22,372 nt of DNA from Oscillospiraceae bacterium (GTDB lineage Bacteria; Bacillota; Clostridia; Saccharofermentanales; Saccharofermentanaceae). Each line of letters opens with the position of its first letter. Position 1 is the first letter of the stretch. Shown in pieces: positions 2,853-22,372 of this stretch. A program made the position numbers and the translations under genes. The notes under the pieces were generated by a model. It was not told where the DNA came from, did no database searches, and saw only the letters and a list, made by a program, of their open reading frames with translations. Where the stretch lies: contig CACXGG010000184.1 in assembly GCA_902767145.1 (NCBI GenBank), positions 1-22,372 of the forward strand, written 5' to 3'.

Positions 2853-5651
2853 TCAGAATTCAAAACCGGTAACTTCCTCCAAGGGACAGATATATGTAAA
2901 CTTCAATGATTTAAGGGTCAGGCCGGTACTTGTAAAGTGCGTCCTCATTATGGAATATTTTGAATGGAACAGCATCTCGCCTTCGATGACCGCATCCTTT
3001 CCCTCTGTTCCGTTCCATGTGATCACACGGATGGGAATGCTGTTAAAGAAGACCGTCATGGGTATCTGGGCCAGCGGATTAAGATCGGAGCATCCTGTCA
3101 TCTCGACCTTATACAGACCGTGCTTATCGCAGTTGATCCCGAAGAGGAAATCGTTCCCGGCGCTCGTATCCACATTTACATTGATAACAGGATCCTCGTT
3201 GATGCTGTAGTAGCAGTCGACCTTAGTCTCGATCGCCTCTCCCTCGAAGGGACAGTCGATCTGGACTATCTTCTCAGCCTGGCCGTTCTCGCGCTTCATG
3301 GCATATGTATCCATGGCAAATCTTATGATATTCTTCGCATTTCTCTGAAGTTCCGCCCTGGTGATAAGGGCAGTATTGCCATTCTTTATATTTTCGTAAG
3401 TATCGCTCTCAAGAAGATTCTTTTTCTCCACGCCGGAACATACCATATAGACGTCGCACTGGGCGCGTGCCATAAGGGAATGTTCAGTGAGAACGTGTCC
3501 ATAGGGATCATCGGGGACCTCATTTATGAAGGCCCACCAGTCGGTCATGACCATTCCTGTATAGCCCCACTGCTCTCTCAATATAATGGTATTGAGATCA
3601 TAATTGGCTGTACCATATTCTCCGTTGATCCTGTTATAGACCGACATTATGCTCCTGGCTCCACCCTCCTTGACAGCGATCTCAAATCCCTTGAGATAGA
3701 TCTCGCGGAGAGCTCTTTCAGAAACGACGGAATCCATGAACCTTCTGTTCGTCTCTCTGTTATTGGCACAGAAGTGCTTGATGGTGGCAGTGACATCATG
3801 CCTGTGAAGGCCCCGGAGCTGGGCACATGCCATACGTCCGGTAAGGAGAGGATCCTCCGAAAAGTACTCGAAGTTCCTTCCGTTAAGGGGATTTCTGTGG
3901 ATATTGATACCGGGGCCGAGAATGACATCTACTTCATTAGTCATCATCTCGATACCGAAATATCCGAAGAGCTCCTCGGTAAGCTCCTCATTATAGGAGC
4001 AGGCGATACATGTTCCGTTGGAAAGGGCAAAAGCCTTCTTGCCGCTGTCGAGCCTCATTCCTGAAGGGCCGTCATCACAGCAGACGGCAGGGATCCCGAG
4101 CTGCTGAAGTTCCTTGCTGATACCGCAGAAGGCTGCGGCAGTTCCCGTGGTTACCTTAGGGCTGCTCATTCCCTCACCTCTGATGATGAGAGCGAGGTCT
4201 TCATCAGTAAGCTGGGCCACGAACTCATCGAGGGTATTCTTACCTTCCTTTACATCAGAGAGCTTTATATCCCTTCTTCCGCTCTGAGGGATCTCAGGAG
4301 AGACAAGATCGAGCCTTGAATCCACATTCTCCACTTCCCTTACGGGAACCTTCTCATATATAAGATTTCCGTCAGCATCAGAAGTCATCCTGTCAAAGGA
4401 CTCCACAGGTCTCAAGGCAGACTTAAGACCCTCAAGAAGTGTATCTTCAGAAACAGATATCTTACCTGCCTCAGTATTATCAACTACATCAAAACCTGCG
4501 CTGAATACATAGTCACCCTTTTCCAGCACCCAGCCCGTTCCGAGACCAAGTCGTCCGTCATCATCGTAAGATGCATAGCGGAAGGCATCAGCACTTATCT
4601 TAAGGGTCTGGTCCTGACCGGGAAGAAGTTCTTCAGTCTTGGTAAAACCCACCAGCACTTTTGACGGCTTTCCTAAAACTCCCTTAGGTGCGGAAGCGAA
4701 AAGAAGGACTGCTTTCTTACCCTTATAGACACCTGTATTCGTTACCTTAAATGAAGCGGTAACAGAAGTGCCCTCCGAAGCAAGAGATACGTCTGAGATC
4801 TTAAAGGATGTATAACCCAGTCCGAAACCGAAGGGATACATCACCTTCTCAGGTGCAAAGGTGGAAAAATATCTGTAGCCTACATAGATATCCTCACAGT
4901 AAAGATCCTTCATGGGATCAACGTTTCCGAAGTTGGCAGTGGAAGGATAATCCTCAAAGGAATAAGCGATGGTATCTGTAAGTGATCCTGAAGGATATGC
5001 CCTTCCGGCGATAAGATCGGCACAGGCATCTCCTCCCACAAGTCCTGCCTGCCAGATATACATGACGGCAGAGGGATCATATTTCTTAACAAAGGACATG
5101 TCGATGATGTTTCCCACATTGAGAAGGACGATGGTCTTCTCAAAGGACTCGCAGACGATCCTTATCATCTCCTCCTCACCGTCAGACAGGAAGAAGGATC
5201 CCTTCTCGGGAGTATTATCCCTGTCCTCTCCGGCAGTCCTGGCGATGACTATGATGGCAGCATCGTTATTTGATGCAGCTGTCCTTACAAAGTCAGGATC
5301 GAGAGCCATCTCATCCTGGGACCATCTCTCCTTGCCCCAGCCAACACCGGGATCAACGGGATTACTTTCCTCCCAGTCGATATAGGCCTGCTTTACACTC
5401 TCATCGATGATGATGTCGGAATCCTTTTCGAGAGCTTCCTCCACAGAAGGAACGTGGGCTGTATTTACCATACCTCCCGAGCCTGTTCCGCTCTTGTAGT
5501 AGTGAAACTGCATGCGTCCGAAGACTGCAGCCTTTGAACCTTTCCTTAAAGGAAGAGTGCCATTGTCATTTTTCAGAAGGACTGAACCCTCCTGTGCTAT
5601 CTTAAGTGCCGCATCGCGGTATCTATTCCAGTCAAATATGATATCGGGCAT
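2853..5651 (-). CDS. GH3 beta-glucosidase-like enzyme with permuted domain order
   Basis: A 932-residue glycoside hydrolase family 3 enzyme in which the usual C-terminal part comes first. Residues about 1-245 form the alpha/beta sandwich (IIVIARTAGEDRDN, then QAGLVGGDACADLIAGRAYPSGSL). About 285-400 is the fibronectin-III-like domain (YPFGFGLGYTSF, VTNTGVYKGKKAVLLF). The TIM barrel begins near 475 (LTDEDLALII at 481) and contains DDGPSGMR, the conserved KH pair K625/H626 and the nucleophile D704 in VMTDWW. About 790-932 is an extra beta-rich region I cannot name. The reversed order is known from rumen Ruminococcus and Butyrivibrio enzymes. No signal peptide is visible, so it probably hydrolyses imported oligosaccharides in the cytoplasm. 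Exact substrate is unknown (beta-glucosides are likeliest). GGAGGTG precedes the ATG and sits inside a hairpin described separately. Confidence 0.93.
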   Translation of the reverse strand: MPDIIFDWNRYRDAALKIAQEGSVLLKNDNGTLPLRKGSKAAVFGRMQFHYYKSGTGSGGMVNTAHVPSVEEALEKDSDIIIDESVKQAYIDWEESNPVDPGVGWGKERWSQDEMALDPDFVRTAASNNDAAIIVIARTAGEDRDNTPEKGSFFLSDGEEEMIRIVCESFEKTIVLLNVGNIIDMSFVKKYDPSAVMYIWQAGLVGGDACADLIAGRAYPSGSLTDTIAYSFEDYPSTANFGNVDPMKDLYCEDIYVGYRYFSTFAPEKVMYPFGFGLGYTSFKISDVSLASEGTSVTASFKVTNTGVYKGKKAVLLFASAPKGVLGKPSKVLVGFTKTEELLPGQDQTLKISADAFRYASYDDDGRLGLGTGWVLEKGDYVFSAGFDVVDNTEAGKISVSEDTLLEGLKSALRPVESFDRMTSDADGNLIYEKVPVREVENVDSRLDLVSPEIPQSGRRDIKLSDVKEGKNTLDEFVAQLTDEDLALIIRGEGMSSPKVTTGTAAAFCGISKELQQLGIPAVCCDDGPSGMRLDSGKKAFALSNGTCIACSYNEELTEELFGYFGIEMMTNEVDVILGPGINIHRNPLNGRNFEYFSEDPLLTGRMACAQLRGLHRHDVTATIKHFCANNRETNRRFMDSVVSERALREIYLKGFEIAVKEGGARSIMSVYNRINGEYGTANYDLNTIILREQWGYTGMVMTDWWAFINEVPDDPYGHVLTEHSLMARAQCDVYMVCSGVEKKNLLESDTYENIKNGNTALITRAELQRNAKNIIRFAMDTYAMKRENGQAEKIVQIDCPFEGEAIETKVDCYYSINEDPVINVNVDTSAGNDFLFGINCDKHGLYKVEMTGCSDLNPLAQIPMTVFFNSIPIRVITWNGTEGKDAVIEGEMLFHSKYSIMRTHFTSTGLTLKSLKFTYICPLEEVTGFEF

Positions 5652-5727: not shown

Positions 5728-6861
5728 TTATGTAAAATCGATCGTTATCTTTACGGGATCACAGGCGGTATATCTTATGATCTCATCCATCCTGGGTCTC
5801 TCCTTGTAGGAGACAAGGGAATAGGCACATCCCTTTCTTCCGGCTCTTCCCGTTCTTCCGATCCTGTGAAGGTAGAACTCGTTCTCGTTGGGGATCTCAT
5901 AATTGAAGACCGCCTCAACGTCGTCCACATCTATTCCGCGGGCGATGACGTCAGTGGCAACCAGTACATCGAACTTGCCTTTTCTGTATGCGTCCATGAC
6001 ACGGTTCCTGGTACCCTGTCCGATGCTTCCGTGAAGGAGCCTGCAGGATACGCCGGAGGCCTCGAGCTTTGATGCCACCTTCTCGGTCTGGACCTTCGTA
6101 TTACAGAAGACGATGGCCTTCTTTATAGAACTGCTGTCCATGATGCGGATTATCGCATCCACCTTATCCTTCTCCGGGATCTCGATGAGATACTCGTCTA
6201 TGTCGGGATGGTCCTCAGCCTTGGGCATAACATCGATCTCGGCTGCACCCTCCATGAACTGCCATGTGATATCCAGGATCTCCCTGGGCATGGTGGCGGA
6301 GAAAAGAGCCATCTGCTTATCATTGGGAGTAGCTGCGATTATCTTCTTGATATCCCTGATAAATCCCATCTTCAGCATCTCATCTGCCTCATCCAGGACC
6401 AGGGTGTAGATATCTCCGATGTCGATCATCTTCCTGGAGACAAGATCAAGGAGTCTTCCGGGAGTAGCGACTACAACCTGGGGCTTCTTGGCGATCTTCT
6501 CGCTCTGGATCTTCATGGACTGACCGCCGATGATGGCACAGACACGGAATCCCTTGATGTTCCTGCCGAGGCCCTTGATCTCAGATGTTATCTGAAGTGC
6601 GAGCTCTCTGGTGGGACAGAGGATAAGGGCCTGTACGAAGTCAGCCTTCATGTTCAGATATTCAAGAATGGGTATAGAAAACGCAAAGGTCTTTCCCGTT
6701 CCGGTGGGAGCCTTTGCGATAAGTGACATATTATCCATAAGAAGAGGTATAGCCTTCTGCTGTACCGTAGTGGGGCGTTTTACACCCATCTTCTTAAGTG
6801 CCCCCATTATCTCCGGGGACAGGTCCATATCGTTAAAAGTTATCTCATTATTATCTTCCAT
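5728..6861 (-). CDS. DEAD-box ATP-dependent RNA helicase, minimal core
   Basis: A 377-residue helicase that unwinds RNA duplexes using ATP in ribosome assembly or mRNA turnover. The motifs run in order: F9 with Q34 (Q motif), APTGTGKT at 51-58 (motif I), PTRELA (Ia), DEAD at 157-160 (II), SAT (III), ARGID (V) and HRIGRTGR at 332-339 (VI). The protein stops about 38 residues after motif VI. It therefore lacks the basic or RNA-binding C-terminal extension found in CshA, DeaD or DbpA, and a specific subfamily cannot be assigned. The ATG has no convincing Shine-Dalgarno upstream (see the promoter entry). Transcription diverges from the DeoB-DeoC gene across a 70-base gap. Confidence 0.95.
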   Translation of the reverse strand: MEDNNEITFNDMDLSPEIMGALKKMGVKRPTTVQQKAIPLLMDNMSLIAKAPTGTGKTFAFSIPILEYLNMKADFVQALILCPTRELALQITSEIKGLGRNIKGFRVCAIIGGQSMKIQSEKIAKKPQVVVATPGRLLDLVSRKMIDIGDIYTLVLDEADEMLKMGFIRDIKKIIAATPNDKQMALFSATMPREILDITWQFMEGAAEIDVMPKAEDHPDIDEYLIEIPEKDKVDAIIRIMDSSSIKKAIVFCNTKVQTEKVASKLEASGVSCRLLHGSIGQGTRNRVMDAYRKGKFDVLVATDVIARGIDVDDVEAVFNYEIPNENEFYLHRIGRTGRAGRKGCAYSLVSYKERPRMDEIIRYTACDPVKITIDFT

Positions 6862-6893: not shown

Positions 6894-6931
6894 TTAAGAA
6901 GATTATTACAGACTAAATGACGGAGGCATCT

Positions 6932-8764
6932 ATGGATAAGCGCGTTTTTCTTGTGGTTCTTGACAGTTTCGGAATAGGAGGCGCACCCGATGCCGCGGAT
7001 TTCGGGGATGAGGGCAGCAACACACTGGCTGCCGTTTTATCCCATTCGGACGAAGCCTTCCCCAACCTGGCTAAGATGGGTCTTTTCGACATAGACGGCA
7101 ACGATGATCCCAGGATCAAGGACTACCTGAAAAAGCAGGAGCGCCTGACCTATCCCTGGGGCTGGTATGGAAGGATAAGAGAGCTTTCCAAGGGCAAGGA
7201 TTCCGTCATCGGTCACTGGGAGATGGCAGGTGTCTATTCCTCCTCCCCCCTTCCCACTTACCCGGAAGGATTTCCTGAAGAGATAATATCAGCTCTTAAG
7301 GAGGCAACCGGAAGGAACATCCTCTGCAATAAACCCTACAGCGGCACAGAGGTCATAAAGGACTACGGTGAGGAGCATATGAAGACAGGAGCTCTCATCG
7401 TTTATACCTCTGCTGATTCCGTTCTTCAGATCGCCGCCCACGAGGACGTTATCCCCGTGGAGGAGTTGTATGAAATCTGCGAAAAGGCAAGAGAGATAAT
7501 GACGGGAAAACACGGTGTCGGCAGGGTCATCGCCCGCCCCTTCGAAGGCACCCCGGGAAACTTTGTAAGGACATCCCGCCGCCACGACTATTCACTGGCA
7601 GCTCCCTCGGACACCATGCTGGACACCATAAAGGCCCACGGCCTGGATGTAATATCCATCGGTAAGATCAGGGACCTGTTTGCCCAGAGAGGCATAACCG
7701 AAGCTATACCCACCTCGGGAAATACAGAAGGTATAAAGATCTGGCTGGAGAAGGAAGAGACAGACTTCGGCGGTCTGTGCTATCTGAACCTGGTGGACTT
7801 CGATATGAAATACGGCCACAGAAATGATATCGAGGGCTACAACAGGGCAATGCATGAATTCGACGACGCCCTGGGAAAGTTCCTGGAATATATGCGTCCC
7901 GATGATCTTCTCATCATCACCGCCGACCACGGCTGCGACCCTTCCACCGAGTCCACTGACCATTCCAGGGAATGCGTACCCCTTCTGATCTACGGCGATA
8001 AGTATAATGTCCCCCACAATATGGGCACCACCGCAGGTTTTGGCATCGTGGCACAGACAGTATATGACTACCTGTTCGGAGACTCGCTCAAGAGGGACTT
8101 CGAACCCGCCACAGCTTCACATGTCCCTGATAAGGACAATATCATGAGCTATGTGGATATGACAAACCTCAAGAACACCGCCACCACTAAGGATATCAAG
8201 GACCTGGTGGAAAGGGCCATAAGCGAAAATGCGGCCTCCGTATGTGTCCAGCCCTGCTTTGTAAGGACAGCCAGGGAAGCAGCAAAGGGCAGGCTCAATA
8301 TCTGCACCGTCATCGGATTCCCCATGGGATACCAGACCACCGCCGTCAAGAAGTTCGAAGCAGAGGAGGCCTGCGACAACGGAGCATCTGAGATCGACAT
8401 GGTGATCAATATCAATATGGTCAAGTCGGCCGCCTTCAATGTGGTAGCCAATGAGATCCATGTGATCGCCGAGGCAGTCCACAAAAAAGGAGCCATCCTC
8501 AAGGTAATAATCGAGACATGCGCTCTCACGGAAACAGAGAAGAAGGTCCTCTGCCAGATAGTTACGGTCCAGGGAGCTGACTTCATAAAGACAAGTACCG
8601 GCTTTGGATCTGCCGGTGCCACCGTGGAGGATGTAAGGCTCCTGAGAAGATACACAGGCAGCACCATCGACGTCAAAGCCGCCGGCGGCATAAGGACAAA
8701 GGAAGATGCCCAAAAGATGATAGAGGCAGGAGCTTCCAGGATCGGAGCATCTAATCTCAAATAA
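6932..8764 (+). CDS. deoB-deoC: Fused phosphopentomutase / deoxyribose-phosphate aldolase
   Basis: One 610-residue frame encodes two consecutive enzymes of nucleoside catabolism. Residues about 1-388 are phosphopentomutase, which moves phosphate from C1 to C5 of (deoxy)ribose. The metal ligands expected from the Bacillus enzyme are present: D11, D291, H296, D332, H333 and H344. The phospho-acceptor Thr of the GKDT..GHWE motif is Ser (S91 in GKDSVIGHWE). Residues about 403-610 are DERA, which cleaves deoxyribose-5-phosphate to acetaldehyde and glyceraldehyde-3-phosphate. It has D489, Schiff-base K553 in FIKTSTG and K582 in VKAAGG. About 14 linker residues join them. The start at 6932 is preferred because GGAGG (6922-6926) lies 5 bases before it, and the ATG at 6917 has no such site. 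A second Shine-Dalgarno and ATG lie at the junction (8132-8146). Both halves look active. Confidence 0.95.
   Translation: MDKRVFLVVLDSFGIGGAPDAADFGDEGSNTLAAVLSHSDEAFPNLAKMGLFDIDGNDDPRIKDYLKKQERLTYPWGWYGRIRELSKGKDSVIGHWEMAGVYSSSPLPTYPEGFPEEIISALKEATGRNILCNKPYSGTEVIKDYGEEHMKTGALIVYTSADSVLQIAAHEDVIPVEELYEICEKAREIMTGKHGVGRVIARPFEGTPGNFVRTSRRHDYSLAAPSDTMLDTIKAHGLDVISIGKIRDLFAQRGITEAIPTSGNTEGIKIWLEKEETDFGGLCYLNLVDFDMKYGHRNDIEGYNRAMHEFDDALGKFLEYMRPDDLLIITADHGCDPSTESTDHSRECVPLLIYGDKYNVPHNMGTTAGFGIVAQTVYDYLFGDSLKRDFEPATASHVPDKDNIMSYVDMTNLKNTATTKDIKDLVERAISENAASVCVQPCFVRTAREAAKGRLNICTVIGFPMGYQTTAVKKFEAEEACDNGASEIDMVININMVKSAAFNVVANEIHVIAEAVHKKGAILKVIIETCALTETEKKVLCQIVTVQGADFIKTSTGFGSAGATVEDVRLLRRYTGSTIDVKAAGGIRTKEDAQKMIEAGASRIGASNLK
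8132..8146 (+). promoter_or_regulatory. Possible internal ribosome binding site and start for DERA alone
   Basis: AAGGA (8132-8136) lies 7 bases before an in-frame ATG at 8144, exactly where the DERA domain begins (MSYVDMTNLK). Just upstream, out of frame, are consecutive stops TGA TAA (8128-8133). Initiation here would make a free aldolase of 206 residues from the same mRNA. The sequence is seen directly. Use of the site is inferred. Confidence 0.4.
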
Positions 8765-9119: not shown

Positions 9120-10073
9120 TCAGAAGGATACCTGATTCTTTCCGTTTCTCTTGGACTTGTAGAGCTTTCTGTCTGCAAGGGAGATAAGCTCAGAGATATC
9201 ATTTCCCTTCTCATATGAGGCGATACCAAGGGAGATGGTAACCTTCTCCGACTTGCCGTCACCTACGGGAACGGGGGTGGACTGGACAGCTTCGGCGATC
9301 TTCTTGGCGATACCGAGAGCCTGCATCTTATCACAGTCGGGGAGCATTACCATAAACTCGTCACCGCCGATCCTGAAGCAGGTATCAGTCTTTCTGGCAG
9401 CCACCAGCATGGAGCTGGCCACATGGCGGAGGACATCATCTCCGTGGGGCTGGCCGTACTGGTCATTGATGAACTTCATGTCGTCGATATCGATCTCGAT
9501 AAGGGCAAAGGTGCTGTCATCAGACCTGCTCTCATAGATATTGATGGTCCTCTCCAGGGTCTCATAGAAATAACGTCTGTTATAAAGGCCACACAGGTCG
9601 TCCACTCTTGCGAGCCTCTGGACCTTCTGATAGGACTTCTCAAGTTCCTTGGCTATCTTCTTCTGCTCAGTAACGTTCTTGGACATTCCCCAGGTTCCGA
9701 TGATCTCGTGATCCTTGTTATAAAGGGGATACTTGGAGGCGAAGAAATACTGGACCTCATCATCATCGTCCCTCTTCAGCTCCTCCTCTACATTGAGGAT
9801 GGGCTTTCCGGTCTTGATGATCTCCTGTTCCACTTTCCTTGCAGCCTTGGCAAACTCCTCAGGGAAGTAGTCAAAGTCTGTCTTTCCTATGAGCTCATCA
9901 GGTGATGATGCGCCCAGCTGGTTGGCATGCTCTTTACTATTCCAGAGGAATCTTGATTCCAGGTCTTTGAAATAAACTGTATCAGATGAAAACTGGCGTA
10001 TCGTCTCAAGGACAAGGCTGTCAAGTTCGAGCCTCTCTTCGGGGGTCATATTTATCGGTTCGCGCACACTCAT
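9120..10073 (-). CDS. Soluble PAS-GGDEF diguanylate cyclase
   Basis: A 317-residue protein that should make c-di-GMP from two GTP. Residues about 25-140 are a PAS domain (VYFKDLESRFLWNSKEHA, ending WGMSKNVTEQKK), a short helix (KELEKSYQKVQRLARVDDL) links it to the output, and residues about 155-317 are the GGDEF domain. The active site is the intact GGDEF at 236-240. RKTD (227-230) lies exactly five residues before it and fits the inhibitory I-site, so product feedback is expected. There is no transmembrane segment, so the PAS input is cytoplasmic and its ligand is unknown. GGAGGT lies 8 bases before the ATG. The gene follows the histidine kinase on the same strand but has a 77-base A/T-rich gap of its own, and probably its own promoter. 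Confidence 0.94.
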   Translation of the reverse strand: MSVREPINMTPEERLELDSLVLETIRQFSSDTVYFKDLESRFLWNSKEHANQLGASSPDELIGKTDFDYFPEEFAKAARKVEQEIIKTGKPILNVEEELKRDDDDEVQYFFASKYPLYNKDHEIIGTWGMSKNVTEQKKIAKELEKSYQKVQRLARVDDLCGLYNRRYFYETLERTINIYESRSDDSTFALIEIDIDDMKFINDQYGQPHGDDVLRHVASSMLVAARKTDTCFRIGGDEFMVMLPDCDKMQALGIAKKIAEAVQSTPVPVGDGKSEKVTISLGIASYEKGNDISELISLADRKLYKSKRNGKNQVSF

Positions 10074-15975: not shown

Positions 15976-17307
15976 TCAGGCCTTGGAAGGCTTATCTCCT
16001 TCGGTAACCACCGACTTGTCCAGGCCCTTGTATTCCCTCTCCTCCATGGGAAGGACTGCATTGAGGATGATACCTACCAGGGCACCAACTGCAAGACCGG
16101 AAAGTGAGATGGTAACAGAGCTGATGGTGAAAGAAATGGCACCGCTGTAGTTGATACCGATGGCAAGACCAAGGATCAGTGCGGCGATGATGATATTTCT
16201 TGACTTACTGAAGTCTGTCTTGTTCTCCACCACGTTCCTTACACCGACTGCTGAGATCATACCGTAAAGGACGATGGAAACACCGCCGATGGTAGCAGCA
16301 GGGATAGAAGAGATAAGGGCAGCGAACTTAGGTGAGAAGGAAACTGCAACTGCGAAATAAGCGGCGATCCTGATTACTCTGGGGTCATAGACCTTTGTCA
16401 GGGAAAGAACGCCTGTGTTCTCACCGTATGTGGTATTGGCGGGAGCTCCGAAAAGGGAAGCCAGGATAGTTGCGAGACCGTCACCCATAAGGGTCCTGTG
16501 AAGTCCGGGATCCTCGATGAAGTTCCTGTCAGTGGTGGAGGAGATAGCGGAGATATCTCCGATATGCTCGACCATGGTAGCCAGTGCGATGGGCATGATG
16601 GTCACGATAGCCGTGATGATAAGGGACTTGTCAGGGTTTGCGAAGATGGAGAATACCGTATCGCTGCCGCTGAAGGGAAGTCCGACCCATGCTGCCTCAG
16701 AAACAGGAGTAAAGTCCACAAGACCTACCAGGACTGCTGAGATATATGAAGCAATAACTCCAAGGATGATGGGAACGATCTTGACCATACCCTTACCGTA
16801 GATATTGCAGATGACTACTACGAAGATGGCTATCAGGGCTACGATCCAGCTCTGCTTACAGTTGTCGATGGCAGAAGATGAAAGCGTAAGTCCGATGGCA
16901 ATGATGATGGGGCCAGTAACGATGGGCGGGAAGAATCTCATTACCTTCTTCTGTCCGAATGCCTTGATAAGACCGGCAAGGATAAGGTAGAGAACGCCTG
17001 CACAGGCAACACCGAGACATGCGTAAGGAAGGAGTTCCTTCTCTCCGTTGGGAGCTATGGCAAAATAACCTCCCAGGAAAGCAAAAGAAGAACCAAGGAA
17101 AGCGGGAACCTTACCCTTGGTCAGAAAGTGGAAGAGCAGAGTACCAAGACCTGCGAAAAGAAGTGTGGCTGAAACGGAAAGTCCCGTAAGAGCGGGAACC
17201 AGCACGGTGGCGCCGAACATGGCGAACATATGCTGAAGTCCCAGTACGATCATCTTGGGAGTTCCAAGCGTTTTGGCATCATAGATGCCTCCTTTTTGAT
17301 CACCCAT
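15976..17307 (-). CDS. uraA: Uracil permease (NCS2 / UraA family)
   Basis: A 443-residue H+/uracil symporter with about 14 membrane segments, full length for the family. Substrate-site glutamates are present: E247 in VEHIGDISA and E296 in TTYGENTG, equivalent to E241 and E290 of E. coli UraA. The N-terminus reads LGLQHMFAMFGATVLVPALTG, typical for uracil transporters rather than xanthine permeases. AGGAGG lies 7 bases before the ATG. The 93-base gap upstream contains A/T-rich DNA with TATAGT (minus strand) but no convincing -35. The gene is transcribed alone, ending in the terminator at 15923-15953. It would salvage uracil, the base released by nucleoside phosphorolysis. The pentose phosphate left over is handled by the DeoB-DeoC fusion elsewhere in the window. 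Confidence 0.94.
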   Translation of the reverse strand: MGDQKGGIYDAKTLGTPKMIVLGLQHMFAMFGATVLVPALTGLSVSATLLFAGLGTLLFHFLTKGKVPAFLGSSFAFLGGYFAIAPNGEKELLPYACLGVACAGVLYLILAGLIKAFGQKKVMRFFPPIVTGPIIIAIGLTLSSSAIDNCKQSWIVALIAIFVVVICNIYGKGMVKIVPIILGVIASYISAVLVGLVDFTPVSEAAWVGLPFSGSDTVFSIFANPDKSLIITAIVTIMPIALATMVEHIGDISAISSTTDRNFIEDPGLHRTLMGDGLATILASLFGAPANTTYGENTGVLSLTKVYDPRVIRIAAYFAVAVSFSPKFAALISSIPAATIGGVSIVLYGMISAVGVRNVVENKTDFSKSRNIIIAALILGLAIGINYSGAISFTISSVTISLSGLAVGALVGIILNAVLPMEEREYKGLDKSVVTEGDKPSKA

Positions 17308-17400: not shown

Positions 17401-20400
17401 TCACTTCTTTTCGGGATCGTCTCCGTCTCCCATATGGAACTTCTTATGGATGTTGTCGATATCCTCCGTGGAGCCGCCGCCCACGTCGTCAGGAGCCCTG
17501 AATCCGCCCCTTGCCACGATCCTCAGGAATGCATCTACTACATCGGCAGTAAGCTGGGTACCGGATGCCTCGGTGATGATGTTAACCACCTTGTCAAAGT
17601 TCATCCTGCCCCTGTAGGGACGGTTGGAATACATGGCATCAAAGGCATCTGCAACGGCGATGATCTGGGCAGCCCTGGGGATCTCATCCCCCTTGAGACC
17701 GCTGGGATATCCCCTGCCGTCAGGTCGCTCATGGTGGTACTTGGCTCCCGTGGAGAGCTCGGGCATGATGCTTATATCCTTAAGTACGTTATAGCCCAGA
17801 GTGGTATGGGATTTTATGGCGGCAAACTCATCGTCGTCGAGTCTTCCCTGCTTGTTCAGTACCTCTCCCGGAACACCGATCTTTCCGATGTCATGGAGGA
17901 GGGCGATGTCGTAATACTTCTCCACAGTATCCTCGTCATATCCCAGTTCCTTTGCCAGCATGACCGTATATTCGGCAACTCTCGTGGAGTGGCCGTTGGT
18001 GTATTTGTCCTTCATATCGATGGTTCGGGCAAAGGCCTCTACGATCTCCCTGGTGAACATCTTGTTCTCCTCCTGCTTTTTGAGAAGGGCACGTGTCTTG
18101 TGCTTAGCGTATAGGATTACGATCTCAGCGATGAGCAGGATAAAGAGTGCCGACATGAGGAGCCTGAACCAGGTCTGTTCGAAGATGGACTTCTGCTTGA
18201 CGATGGTGATGGAGAACTCATTGCTGCCGTGGCCCATGGAATCGGAGATCACCATGGTGAACTTATATGATCCGCCGCCCAGGTTCGTATAATCCACCGG
18301 GCTCATCTCGCTCCTTCTGAGAGTGGTGGAGCCAAAGCCCTCAAGTGTATATGTCACCGTGGGATCCATAAGAGAATATGTGCATACATAAGGGTAGATG
18401 GTGATCTTCTTTACATCGCTGGGCACGTTGATGGTACCTGTCTCGTCGGGATAATATCTCACACCGTCAGCCTCTATGTAGGGAACGGTCATCTTGATAT
18501 CATCAACAGTCTCGAAGGGCTCTTCGATATTGACCTTTGCCACACCGGTGGAGCCTGCGATATAAAGGACTCCTTCGTCGGTCACGGAGCTGTAGGAATT
18601 TGATGTCGCTATGACAGGAAGGCCGTTGGCAAAGCCGTAGTAAACGGGATCGATATCCCCGTTCTCCATGAGCTCCTCTGCAGTAGCCACATATATTCCG
18701 TTACTTGAAAGGATCCACACCTCTCCCTGTGAGTTCTCATATAGGTCGAAGTTATTTGAGTAAGGGAACTTCTCTATGGTGGTGATCTCATAATCTGATG
18801 TCATATATGCGATGGAATTACTCGTGACGATCCAGTAGACATCCAGGTTGACGTCCTTCTTGATCCTCATTACCACCTCGGAGGTAAGACCTTCATCAGT
18901 ACTCAGTTCCCTGACCACCTGTCCGTCATTCATTACATAGATGCCGTCGCCGTCAGTTCCCACCAGGATGTCACCATTCTCACCGTCGGCAACTGTCAGT
19001 ACCTCGGTATTGCTCATGCCGGATGATTCATCATAAACCTGGGTGATCTCATCTCCGTCGATGATCACCACGCCGCCGGTACAGGCCACCATAACGGTGC
19101 CATCCTCCCTTTCAAAGACAGTCCTGATCCTGTCGGAAGGCATTCCGTCCTCGGGAGTGAAGCAGACCGCACGTCCGTGGTCGTACCTCACCAGGGCATA
19201 ATCGCCATAAGTGGAGAACCACAGTCTGTCCTGGCTGTCGGCCACGATGGACCTGATCCTGATGCCGTCCAGCATGGTGATCATATCGCTCTGGTGAAGA
19301 TCTGTTCCCGATGCTGTGAAGCAGCTCATGAGAGGGAAGGAAGGTGCAACACCTACCCTGTTGATGGCTGTAAGTCCGTTGTCACGTCCGATGATAAGGA
19401 GGTTGTTGAAATAACATGTGGTATTTACCACCGTCTCCTCCAGCCCGTACTGCTCAAATACATCCGTGAACATATCGGGTACGATCTTCATTACACCCTG
19501 TCTTGAGGAAACGAACCACAGGTTGCCCTGATAGTCTGAGGTAACGCCTTCGATATTGGAAGTCATGGGAACATTTTCCAGAAGCTCCAGCTTTCCATGC
19601 TTATAGACGCCGACGCCGTTGTTGGCACATACCCAGAGATCGCCTCCCATGGGCTTAAGGGCATTTATGTACTCCAGAGGCTCGACATCGATGACATCCT
19701 CCGAAGGGAAGCCCGTCTGAAGGCTTCCGTAGTATATCTCCGTACCCTTTGTACCGAGATAGATATATCCGGGATTTTCCGGATCCACTGCAAAGGCATG
19801 GACATCTTCGATGCCCGTGTCAGAACTGCTGTAAAAACCGGTAAGAGATCCGTTCTCAAAAGTGAGCAGGTCACCGTTCATGGTGAGGCCGTAGATCACT
19901 CCGTCAGCGCCCTTATCCAGGCGTCTTACATATTCGTCATTGATCCTGGGATCATCGAGAAAGGAGATGCTTCCGTCGGGATCGATAAGTGCGACGCCCT
20001 GGGTGGTGGCAACATAGATATTGCCCGCATCATCCTCCGAGAATGATCTGACAGAAGATGCAGGAAGGCCGTCGGACTTGCCGAACATCTCGATATTTCC
20101 TTCCCTGTCCATGCAGGCAGCACCGCTGTCATTCGTTCCGATCCAGAGTCTGTCGGTACTGTCAACGAAGAGACTTACAACGCTGGCGATACCGGTGGTG
20201 GAATCCATTCTCTCAAAGGTATTTCCGTCGTATCTTATAAGACCGCCGTAGCTTCCTATCCAGATAAAGCCATCAGAGGTCTCTGTTATGGCATTGGCCT
20301 CGGATGTGGGAAGTCCGGTGGTGTTGTTATAAAGAAAAGCCGCGTATCCCTCTCTCTTTCCGGTGGGATCCGCGACGAAATCATCATCATCCGCATAAAG

Positions 20401-20496
20401 GGTAAAAGGCACACAGGTAAAGATGACGGCGGCTGCCAGCAACGCGCCGATGACAGTCCTTATTAAACTGATCTTACCTCTAACCATGTTCCCCAT
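17401..20496 (-). CDS. Secreted beta-propeller / Y_Y_Y sensor with cytoplasmic HD-GYP output
   Basis: A 1031-residue receptor. Residues 8-35 are a signal peptide (LLAAAVIFTCVPFTLYA). About 36-660 consist of two-component-regulator propeller repeats (such as DGFIWIGSYGGLIRYDG, DRLWIGTNDSG, GNIYVATTQGVALID), enough for two propellers. About 665-765 is a Y_Y_Y-like domain (YTLEGFGSTTLR onward) and about 776-795 a transmembrane helix. A short cytoplasmic helix leads to an HD-GYP domain with H836, HD at 868-869, HHE at 921-923 and GYP at 929-931. This domain normally degrades c-di-GMP. The start at 20496 gives a clean signal peptide. It has no evident Shine-Dalgarno and lies 13 bases after the YfhO stop, so translational coupling is likely. 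The longer frame from the TTG at 20571 overlaps YfhO and spoils the signal peptide. The ligand is unknown, and sugars are bound by similar Bacteroides sensors. Confidence 0.9.
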   Translation of the reverse strand: MGNMVRGKISLIRTVIGALLAAAVIFTCVPFTLYADDDDFVADPTGKREGYAAFLYNNTTGLPTSEANAITETSDGFIWIGSYGGLIRYDGNTFERMDSTTGIASVVSLFVDSTDRLWIGTNDSGAACMDREGNIEMFGKSDGLPASSVRSFSEDDAGNIYVATTQGVALIDPDGSISFLDDPRINDEYVRRLDKGADGVIYGLTMNGDLLTFENGSLTGFYSSSDTGIEDVHAFAVDPENPGYIYLGTKGTEIYYGSLQTGFPSEDVIDVEPLEYINALKPMGGDLWVCANNGVGVYKHGKLELLENVPMTSNIEGVTSDYQGNLWFVSSRQGVMKIVPDMFTDVFEQYGLEETVVNTTCYFNNLLIIGRDNGLTAINRVGVAPSFPLMSCFTASGTDLHQSDMITMLDGIRIRSIVADSQDRLWFSTYGDYALVRYDHGRAVCFTPEDGMPSDRIRTVFEREDGTVMVACTGGVVIIDGDEITQVYDESSGMSNTEVLTVADGENGDILVGTDGDGIYVMNDGQVVRELSTDEGLTSEVVMRIKKDVNLDVYWIVTSNSIAYMTSDYEITTIEKFPYSNNFDLYENSQGEVWILSSNGIYVATAEELMENGDIDPVYYGFANGLPVIATSNSYSSVTDEGVLYIAGSTGVAKVNIEEPFETVDDIKMTVPYIEADGVRYYPDETGTINVPSDVKKITIYPYVCTYSLMDPTVTYTLEGFGSTTLRRSEMSPVDYTNLGGGSYKFTMVISDSMGHGSNEFSITIVKQKSIFEQTWFRLLMSALFILLIAEIVILYAKHKTRALLKKQEENKMFTREIVEAFARTIDMKDKYTNGHSTRVAEYTVMLAKELGYDEDTVEKYYDIALLHDIGKIGVPGEVLNKQGRLDDDEFAAIKSHTTLGYNVLKDISIMPELSTGAKYHHERPDGRGYPSGLKGDEIPRAAQIIAVADAFDAMYSNRPYRGRMNFDKVVNIITEASGTQLTADVVDAFLRIVARGGFRAPDDVGGGSTEDIDNIHKKFHMGDGDDPEKK

Positions 20497-20509
20497 ACAT
20501 ACGATAGTA

Positions 20510-22372
20510 TCATGTTTTTGTGATTTTTTCTCTTTTTTTAAAAAATTTGACCTCCCCGGCAAATAAGACAAGCCCGAAAAGGGATGAGATCTCTCCCGCC
20601 GCGAACATTGGCGTATGGTAGGAAAGCACTATATCGTGGTGTCCCGAAGGAAGATCCAGGGCCATATATTTGACGTCCGCTCTTATAAGCTCCGCCTTCT
20701 CCCCGTCAACGCTGGCAGTCCAGCCTGTGGAATAGGGTATGGTAAATACCAGCATCTGAGGCGAGGAAAGATCCACCGAGCAGGTGACCTCATCAGTTCC
20801 TATGGCCACATCAGAAGGGGCCTCCGACTTAAGTTCATCTATCCTGTCAAAGGTTCCGTCCATGGGGATACATGATACGGAGATGCTGTCATAGGAATAG
20901 CTGCCCTTCTCCGTAAAGGCAAATACCACCCACTCCTGGGGATCGTCACAATACCCCAGATCGATGGTGAAATCATGCCTGCCGTTATAGTACTCATAAC
21001 CGTCCTCATGAAGATCCAGGACCTTAAGGATGCCGGAGGATGACTTGACCACTACAGCCGTGTCCATTCCGTCGTTATATGTAAGGCCTTTGAAGGTGAT
21101 GTGTGTCTCGCTTCCGGGGATACCGGAAAACTCCAGCCTGACGACTGCCGCATCCCCCGTCACATCTATGGATCCGCCTCCTATGGAGACTTCACTCTCA
21201 TCGCAGGAATACGTGAGATCCGGTTCCACTGTGGAAAGATCGGGTGTTATGACGGGAAGTCCGGAAGAGATATCCTCCTCCACCACTACGCCATGAAGGA
21301 GCGCCTCCTCTTTCATGGAGGGAGAAAGGCCGTCCCAGTAAGACCTTGAGATCAGACTGTCCGACGTAAAGCATAGACCTATGGGATCCTCATTTACGTA
21401 TATATCATGACCCGGGTAGATACTGCTGTCAGTAAGGGCATATCCGTAAGGCACCGCTTCATATCCCTCCGGGACTATGTAGTAAAGGACAGATCCCAGA
21501 TCCGTCATGACAGTCCTGTCATCAAAGTTGGGATACTTGTTCATATCATAGATCCCCAGGCAGAGCTCATTATTAAACTCTATGCAGTAGGGGTTTGATA
21601 TGGTCCAGTAGTAAAGGACGGATGAGACATCCTTGTTGAGGGCGGAATTGAGCTGCACCCCGGATCCGGAATAGCGGTAGAAGGATCCTTCATCCTTAAG
21701 GAGCTCATAAGCCGCTGTTCCGTCATCATCATAATAATCGGATATCTCCGAGGGGCGTCTCGTCTCAGCGGCATAGTTATCACCTGCGGCGCTGAAGAGA
21801 TAGAATGCAGACACAAGGACAGAGATGATGGTAAAGGCCAGTATTATGCCTGCCCTTGTTTTCGGGCTGTCATATCTTTTGGGAAGGAAGGCCATGAGCA
21901 GGATGAAAAGTCCCAGCACCACAAGGGATGCGATGACATCGGGATCACTGATATGTCCTGTAAGTGCGCAGGACATGATGAGCACCGCAAGGATCACCGG
22001 GGCACCCTTTCTGTAAAGACTTCCGGCCTCCAGGAGAAGATCGAATTCGGACGCCAGGACATAAGAAACCAGAAGGGCCACGGAGAAGCTCCATCTGTTG
22101 GACATATAGGACATGCCGTTAAACATCTGTCCGAAGAAAGGTATCAGCATGAATACAAGACAGATCACAGCGAAGACCTTGGCGCTCTTAAGCTCCCCTT
22201 TTCTCAGGAACAGCAGAAGAAGAGCCACCACAGCCGTGGATGTAAAGCAAAGGCAGAGCCAGAAAGTGTTATCCGGGGTAAGGATCAGCCCGGGAAGATC
22301 AGCATAGTAGGACATGGGATAGATAAGCCTCAAGGCATTGACTCCCGAACTTCTTCCGTCACCTGTAAAAGC
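20510..22372 (-). CDS. YfhO-family membrane protein, 5' partial
   Basis: The frame is open through the right edge without a stop, so the N-terminus lies outside and the TTG at 22333 is not taken as the start. The visible 620 residues begin in the membrane part (NALRLIYPMSYYADLPG, about six helices), continue as a large extracytoplasmic beta-rich domain (VLYYWTISNPYCIEFNNELCLG, then DLGSVLYYIVPEGYEAVPYGY, a YfhO hallmark region) and end in one last helix (MFAAGEISSLFGLVLFAG) with a basic tail. YfhO proteins are large membrane proteins implicated in glycosylating lipoteichoic acid or other surface polymers. The substrate here is unknown. It precedes the propeller/HD-GYP gene with a 13-base gap and is very probably in one operon with it. 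Confidence 0.85.
   Translation of the reverse strand, partial: AFTGDGRSSGVNALRLIYPMSYYADLPGLILTPDNTFWLCLCFTSTAVVALLLLFLRKGELKSAKVFAVICLVFMLIPFFGQMFNGMSYMSNRWSFSVALLVSYVLASEFDLLLEAGSLYRKGAPVILAVLIMSCALTGHISDPDVIASLVVLGLFILLMAFLPKRYDSPKTRAGIILAFTIISVLVSAFYLFSAAGDNYAAETRRPSEISDYYDDDGTAAYELLKDEGSFYRYSGSGVQLNSALNKDVSSVLYYWTISNPYCIEFNNELCLGIYDMNKYPNFDDRTVMTDLGSVLYYIVPEGYEAVPYGYALTDSSIYPGHDIYVNEDPIGLCFTSDSLISRSYWDGLSPSMKEEALLHGVVVEEDISSGLPVITPDLSTVEPDLTYSCDESEVSIGGGSIDVTGDAAVVRLEFSGIPGSETHITFKGLTYNDGMDTAVVVKSSSGILKVLDLHEDGYEYYNGRHDFTIDLGYCDDPQEWVVFAFTEKGSYSYDSISVSCIPMDGTFDRIDELKSEAPSDVAIGTDEVTCSVDLSSPQMLVFTIPYSTGWTASVDGEKAELIRADVKYMALDLPSGHHDIVLSYHTPMFAAGEISSLFGLVLFAGEVKFFKKREKITKT

Follow-up and report, generated by a model that had tools for sequence, protein, structure and literature searches.

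A conserved, predicted bifunctional fusion of phosphopentomutase and deoxyribose-phosphate aldolase in a Saccharofermentans-type genus

Does one gene of this Oscillospiraceae contig encode both phosphopentomutase (PPM, DeoB) and deoxyribose-phosphate aldolase (DERA, DeoC), and if so, does the joining of the two enzymes do more than keep them together? One chain joining these consecutive steps of nucleoside-sugar breakdown would also offer a natural starting point for reverse cascades that make nucleosides. The features concerned, numbered along the window (the whole stretch of 22,372 nucleotides that was analysed), are as follows:

5728-6861, minus strand: divergent neighbour, DEAD-box helicase (Pfam DEAD and Helicase_C); context, not part of the enzyme
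6922-6926, plus strand: GGAGG, ribosome-binding-site-like, 5 nt 5' of the ATG at 6932
6932-8764, plus strand: deoB-deoC fusion gene, 610 aa plus stop
6932-8074, plus strand: PPM (DeoB) domain, residues 1-381
7202-7204, plus strand: Ser91 codon, aligning with the nucleophile Thr85 of B. cereus PPM
8078-8140, plus strand: linker (residues 383-403); its sequence varies, and its length a little
8141-8761, plus strand: DERA (DeoC) domain, residues 404-610, with a short C-terminal tail
8588-8590, plus strand: codon of Lys553, to which family alignment points as the Schiff-base lysine
8675-8677, plus strand: codon of Lys582, which by family alignment is the second lysine of the active site
9120-10073, minus strand: convergent neighbour, PAS-GGDEF protein (Pfam); context, not part of the enzyme

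The open reading frame at 6932-8764 translates into a single chain of 610 residues without internal stop. A second in-frame ATG lies upstream at 6917, but the start at 6932 is favoured because GGAGG sits 5 nt ahead of it; in related loci, 54 of 64 starts have an SD-like word ahead of them. Both halves scored above the curated cut-offs of their family models: residues 3-381 for PPM (NF003766, 489.6 bits, E 5e-147, cut-off 256 bits; TIGR01696, 453.3 bits, E 6e-136, cut-off 341.2) and residues 405-608 for DERA (TIGR00126, 229.6 bits, E 3e-68, cut-off 117.3). The nearest solved structures were B. cereus PPM and bacterial DERAs, and the DERA part has the TIM-barrel fold. Thus a preliminary description of this DNA was right in placing a complete PPM and a complete DERA in one uninterrupted frame, an architecture that relatives keep. 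The linker, put there at about 14 residues, is nearer 21-23, as the family models end at 381 and begin at 405 and residues 383-403 lack secondary structure in the predicted model. In a thinned set of 52 genus rows, entropy was 2.18 bits over the linker region (residues 378-403), whereas the two domains had 0.84 and 0.93.

The source genome is fragmented (291 contigs, 78% complete), which would suit an artefact of assembly or binning, and an assembly error at the junction had been raised as a possibility. Relatives refute this reading, which we consider next to impossible: the fusion runs stop-free, from residue 1-3 to 608-610, in 63 of 68 genomes of the genus (Saccharofermentans-type; own genome included). 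Four of them (KHP2, AB4001, YRB3002 and YAD3003, all Ruminococcaceae bacterium) come from records not labelled MAG and are presumably isolates; neither these four nor the source genome gave any DeoB or DeoC match besides the fusion. As for the five exceptions, two are cut at contig ends (G010, G029), one is split over two contigs (G034), one (G118) has its DeoC apart from a DeoB that lies at the end of a contig, and one (G083) carries deoB and deoC as separate genes.

Beyond the genus sample, 7992 database matches were obtained, of which the best 120 listed (P0002, the fusion's own protein, among them) are all 607-652 aa long, carry both Pfam domains and are at least 67% identical; some entries already bear both enzyme names. 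The fusion is therefore not the rarity that it had been taken for: it is near-universal in the genus, its architecture is shared by the best 120 of the 7992 matches, and it has at least five apparent origins (below). A search of open-access literature (titles and abstracts, with subscription journals mostly outside its reach) found no experimental study of a DeoB-DeoC fusion, and within that literature the earlier statement that no well-described fusion of this pair exists holds. The preliminary description had also named a widespread, already characterised family as the case that would overturn it; the family is indeed widespread, and some entries are doubly named, but none of it appeared in characterised form in the open-access literature. 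Thus both parts are known and the architecture has been named in databases, and the fusion is real, conserved and widespread, apparently without laboratory study.

The catalytic residues are intact. The six PPM metal ligands (D11, D291, H296, D332, H333, H344) and the DERA residues D489, K553 and K582 stand where the preliminary description had put them, and each is kept in all 197 distinct genus fusions (226 before removal of exact duplicates; near-duplicates were retained, which leaves the rows non-independent). Loci that were partial or frameshifted (L082, L086, L091-L093) were excluded from the fusion set. The roles of the six metal ligands and of the DERA aspartate are those known for the two families. 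The two lysines correspond, by family alignment, to the active-site Lys167 and Lys201 that PMC6244999 gives for E. coli DERA.

The nucleophile of the PPM domain, on which the preliminary description is silent, departs from its family. At the position of Thr85 in B. cereus PPM, which we take to be the phosphorylated residue there, the fusion carries Ser91, and it thereby lacks the threonine usual in PPMs. PDB titles that include phosphorylated PPM and the T85Q and T85E variants fit Thr85 phosphorylation, and PMC11641776 locates Thr85 at the bound substrate. Serine occupies position 91 in 196 of the 197 distinct genus fusions (L079 has Thr). Threonine is found in 7/7 Lachnospiraceae fusions, in 20/20 DeoBs of the sister genus and in 106 of 107 other DeoBs not fused to DeoC (Lys in the remaining one), a set that includes L132, of the genus, and L137 and L138, DeoBs fused to other partners. 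Among 39 extra DeoB loci, of which L153-L155 come from genomes already within the 107, 37 have Thr, one has Ser and one was unread (L158); L194, a seemingly unfused DeoB, is a further Ser case. Related enzymes, alkaline phosphatase for one, use serine as their nucleophile. Since serine serves there and also occurs in two other DeoBs, Ser91 marks a PPM variant and no exclusion from the family, and from the alignment we infer that Ser91 is the phosphorylated residue. Because a serine nucleophile is unusual for PPM, the enzyme could work at another rate or differ in a phosphatase side reaction.

Ser91 was rejected as a signature of fusion: it occurs in 0/7 Lachnospiraceae fusions, is missing in L079, and is found in a fusion of DeoB to cytidine deaminase (DeoB-Cdd; L164/L193) and in L194. 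It may instead have been acquired after the fusion event, because L079 and the DeoB of G083, both outside the main genus group in trees, retain Thr. In any case, so nearly complete a change from Thr to Ser is odd for a mutase family that has been studied well, and it can be tested on its own.

We also considered whether one domain is a relic, or whether DERA is made alone from an internal start. By dN/dS both domains are under purifying selection, which argues against a relic: in the 10 listed of 12 independent close pairs, the ratio ranged from 0.025 to 0.082 in PPM and from 0.016 to 0.093 in DERA. An internal start drew on Met405, the commonest residue at its position (36 of 52 genus rows), and on an AAGGA ahead of it in the source sequence. 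However, an SD-like word precedes this site in only 1 of 53 loci, while such words stand before 54 of 64 starts and before 45 of the 531 Met codons at other internal places; an internal ribosome-binding site before DERA was thus not found in these loci, and the internal start was rejected, its signal lying below the background for internal Met codons. We hold either version of this alternative to be very improbable.

The C-terminal tail of DERA, important for catalysis to judge by the title of a reference in PMC6244999, is short in the genus. Past the GAS motif it counts 2-5 residues in the genus fusions, 4 in 17/17 unfused sister-genus DERAs, 8-17 in the seven Lachnospiraceae fusions and, among nine other separate DERAs, 8-20 in all but that of G118, which has 4. 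A loss of helix alpha-8 from the barrel was entertained and dropped, because the unfused sister-genus DERAs share the short tail and the model aligns with solved DERAs through residue 610; many of the aligned ranges finish near the end of the resolved chain. The model of a Lachnospiraceae fusion has a C-terminal helix at 601-610, so the tails do differ.

Where, then, did the fusion arise? In the 30 other genomes of the family, no match covered both domains without a stop. In the sister genus (g18), deoB and deoC lie adjacent as separate genes in 21 loci and share a frame in some; six g18 loci aligned over both genes as one piece, and the long 'open frames' that had made them candidate fusions were rejected, as the DNA of all six holds one to three stops between the genes. 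Among the matches listed from 391 genomes of the class and 398 of the phylum, which end at weaker matches so that a very divergent fusion could escape, no stop-free span of both domains was seen outside the genus. The genes are thus normally separate, as had been stated, in nearly all relatives seen outside it. A second fused set consists of L088, L089 and P0122-P0126 (the last five 59-96% identical to L088); two of its genomes (G886, G887) have other DERA-like genes, and therefore the fusion is not the sole copy there.

In DeoB trees built from 67 and 53 chosen rows, fusions of the Lachnospiraceae type fell in four places among other DeoBs, apart from the genus fusions, with starred branches forcing four changes. 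Constraining the 18 fused rows of the 53-row tree to one clade was rejected (log-likelihood 291 lower, p-AU 4.5e-5). These trees indicate that the DeoB-DeoC fusion arose at least five separate times, genus included, if each change is a gain. In a DERA tree of 43 chosen rows the genus fusions cluster, with the G118 DeoC inside (support 94, not starred), and the separate DeoC of G083 groups with Lachnospiraceae-type DERAs (support 95, starred). G083 (L132, L133) has a separate deoB with Thr that stops where the linker of the fusion begins, and its Lachnospiraceae-type deoC is on a different contig; its separate DeoB could be either ancestral or a later split. In the separate DeoC of G118 (L134:917-1534) an ordinary N-terminus is followed by a C-terminal part of the genus type. 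The PAS-GGDEF gene known from near the fusion lies on this piece of DNA too, so either the fusion would have split where it stood or the assembly would be chimeric.

DeoB was met with other partners as well. One 838-aa frame joins it to pyrimidine-nucleoside phosphorylase (PyNP; L155:111-2624, the same DNA in L138), and in two genomes it is joined to cytidine deaminase, with Ser at the nucleophile position in one (L193:516-2147, minus strand) and Thr in the other (L195:350-1849, minus strand). In a 626-aa open frame (L137:336-2213) a Nudix-like domain, below the cut-offs of that family, precedes DeoB. Fusion in the deo pathway is therefore not limited to DeoB-DeoC, which makes the present case less surprising.

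The structure of the genus fusion was predicted with mean pLDDT 93.2 and pTM 0.91 (alignment A1, 106 rows, 75 fused), the linker at pLDDT of about 90-94; residues 291-300, which hold the metal ligands D291 and H296, averaged 61, with 293-295 below 50. For the Lachnospiraceae fusion P0122 the values were 92.2 and 0.66, with residues 391-394 below 50 (A2, 70 rows, 29 fused). By these models, the chances are about even that the two domains of the genus fusion hold one fixed arrangement, and those of the Lachnospiraceae fusions are probably just loosely tethered; the contrast in pTM (0.91 vs 0.66) may stem from the make-up of the alignments, with fused rows 75 of 106 in A1 and 29 of 70 in A2. A flexible tether as the sole reading for the genus was suggested by linker variability but weakened by the pTM of 0.91, and both are reported here.

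The gene does not stand beside others of its pathway: no other deo gene was found among the window genes scanned. Relatives of its two neighbours, the helicase and the PAS-GGDEF protein, were each met near 54 of 59 related loci, within the flanks examined but in some cases not directly beside the gene. Farther off on the minus strand, the window encodes a glycoside hydrolase of family 3 with the C-terminal domain before the N-terminal one and an Fn3-like part between them (2853-5651), a permease of the xanthine/uracil type (15976-17307), downstream of the fusion by about 7 kb and with a possible link to nucleobase uptake, and a 1056-aa protein with two-component-regulator propeller repeats and an HD (HD_5) domain (17401-20571). 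Elsewhere in the genus, matches of the PNP family exceeded the cut-off in 30 of 30 genomes and those of PyNP in 26 of 30 (G000 and G014 have fragments, G018 a weak match only, G016 none); therefore the upstream steps are present in the genus. The source genome, 78% complete, had a weak PNP match and a PyNP fragment. Of 20 genus genomes just one had AdhE over the cut-off, and AdhE as a general acetaldehyde sink is thus unsupported.

Taken together, the family-model scores far over the equivalog cut-offs, the invariant catalytic residues, the purifying selection and the recurrence of the pair make it very likely that the fusion is a bifunctional enzyme converting deoxyribose-1-phosphate to glyceraldehyde-3-phosphate and acetaldehyde. 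Weighing against it are the serine nucleophile, the short DERA tail (although the unfused sister-genus DERAs have it too), the scarcity of AdhE, the poor PNP and PyNP matches of the source genome, those of G016 and G018 for PyNP, and the low pLDDT at residues 291-300. The earlier claim that a complete PPM and a complete DERA are joined in one chain and act on consecutive steps is supported. In the proposed mechanism, nucleoside phosphorylases encoded elsewhere in the genome would release (deoxy)ribose-1-phosphate; the N-terminal domain, with Ser91 replacing the usual Thr, would shift the phosphate to give (deoxy)ribose-5-phosphate; and the C-terminal domain, through a Schiff base on Lys553, would cleave deoxyribose-5-phosphate into glyceraldehyde-3-phosphate and acetaldehyde. 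The fusion would hold both activities at 1:1 where the gene is not beside other deo genes.

What the joining adds to such an enzyme is less certain. It is rather probable that two neighbours fused simply by loss of a stop codon, which would bring co-expression only and leave the sites kinetically uncoupled: the g18 genes are adjacent, stop-separated and in frame in some loci, DeoB has also been joined to PyNP, Cdd and Nudix, so that fusion of neighbours is common here, and the linker is variable. Such an origin sits less well with the near-universal presence in the genus and with the one confident arrangement predicted there (pTM 0.91, linker pLDDT about 90-94). That arrangement, and the recurrent fusion of consecutive enzymes, would instead suit a fixed two-domain body in which deoxyribose-5-phosphate is channelled directly between facing active sites. 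Channelling is nevertheless unlikely in our estimate: the linker sequence is not conserved, which argues against a finely tuned channel built by the linker, and the model of the Lachnospiraceae fusion is without such an arrangement. The predicted fixed arrangement makes transfer of the intermediate easier to test and does not demonstrate it.

A bolder and likewise doubtful reading of the models is that the old fusion of the genus has matured into a rigid enzyme with its own interface, a Ser nucleophile and facing sites, in which deoxyribose-5-phosphate stays inside, while the independent fusions elsewhere are loose tethers. If it were true, there would be a natural series from early to late stages of enzyme fusion for a single pathway step, and the release of toxic acetaldehyde would also be handled without leaving the protein. 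For the bifunctional enzyme itself, at least five apparent fusions and the surviving tandem genes of the sister genus allow split, loosely fused and long-fused forms to be compared like with like.

The fusion can be set against several known systems. B. cereus PPM (3m8w, 3twz, 3un2; TIGR01696/NF003766) has Thr85 where the fusion has Ser91. Separate DeoBs possess a C-terminal segment that, by eye, the linker replaces in the fusion, which is in addition joined to DERA. From L. brevis DERA (4xbs; TIGR00126) the fusion differs by its very short C-terminal tail and by an N-terminus joined to PPM. Gene clusters of the deo type encode the same two reactions in separate genes: by eye, deoB, PNP, deoC, cytidine deaminase and PyNP stand in a row at L098, with the PNP-like gene between deoB and deoC, and deoB, deoC and cytidine deaminase follow one another at L141 of the sister genus. 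Closest in architecture and length, at 68-69% identity, are the database proteins named by their sources 'phosphopentomutase/deoxyribose-phosphate aldolase' (P0058, P0079 and P0089, from JGI) and 'deoxyribose-phosphate aldolase/phosphopentomutase,TIGR01696' (P0084, from Ruminococcaceae bacterium R-25).
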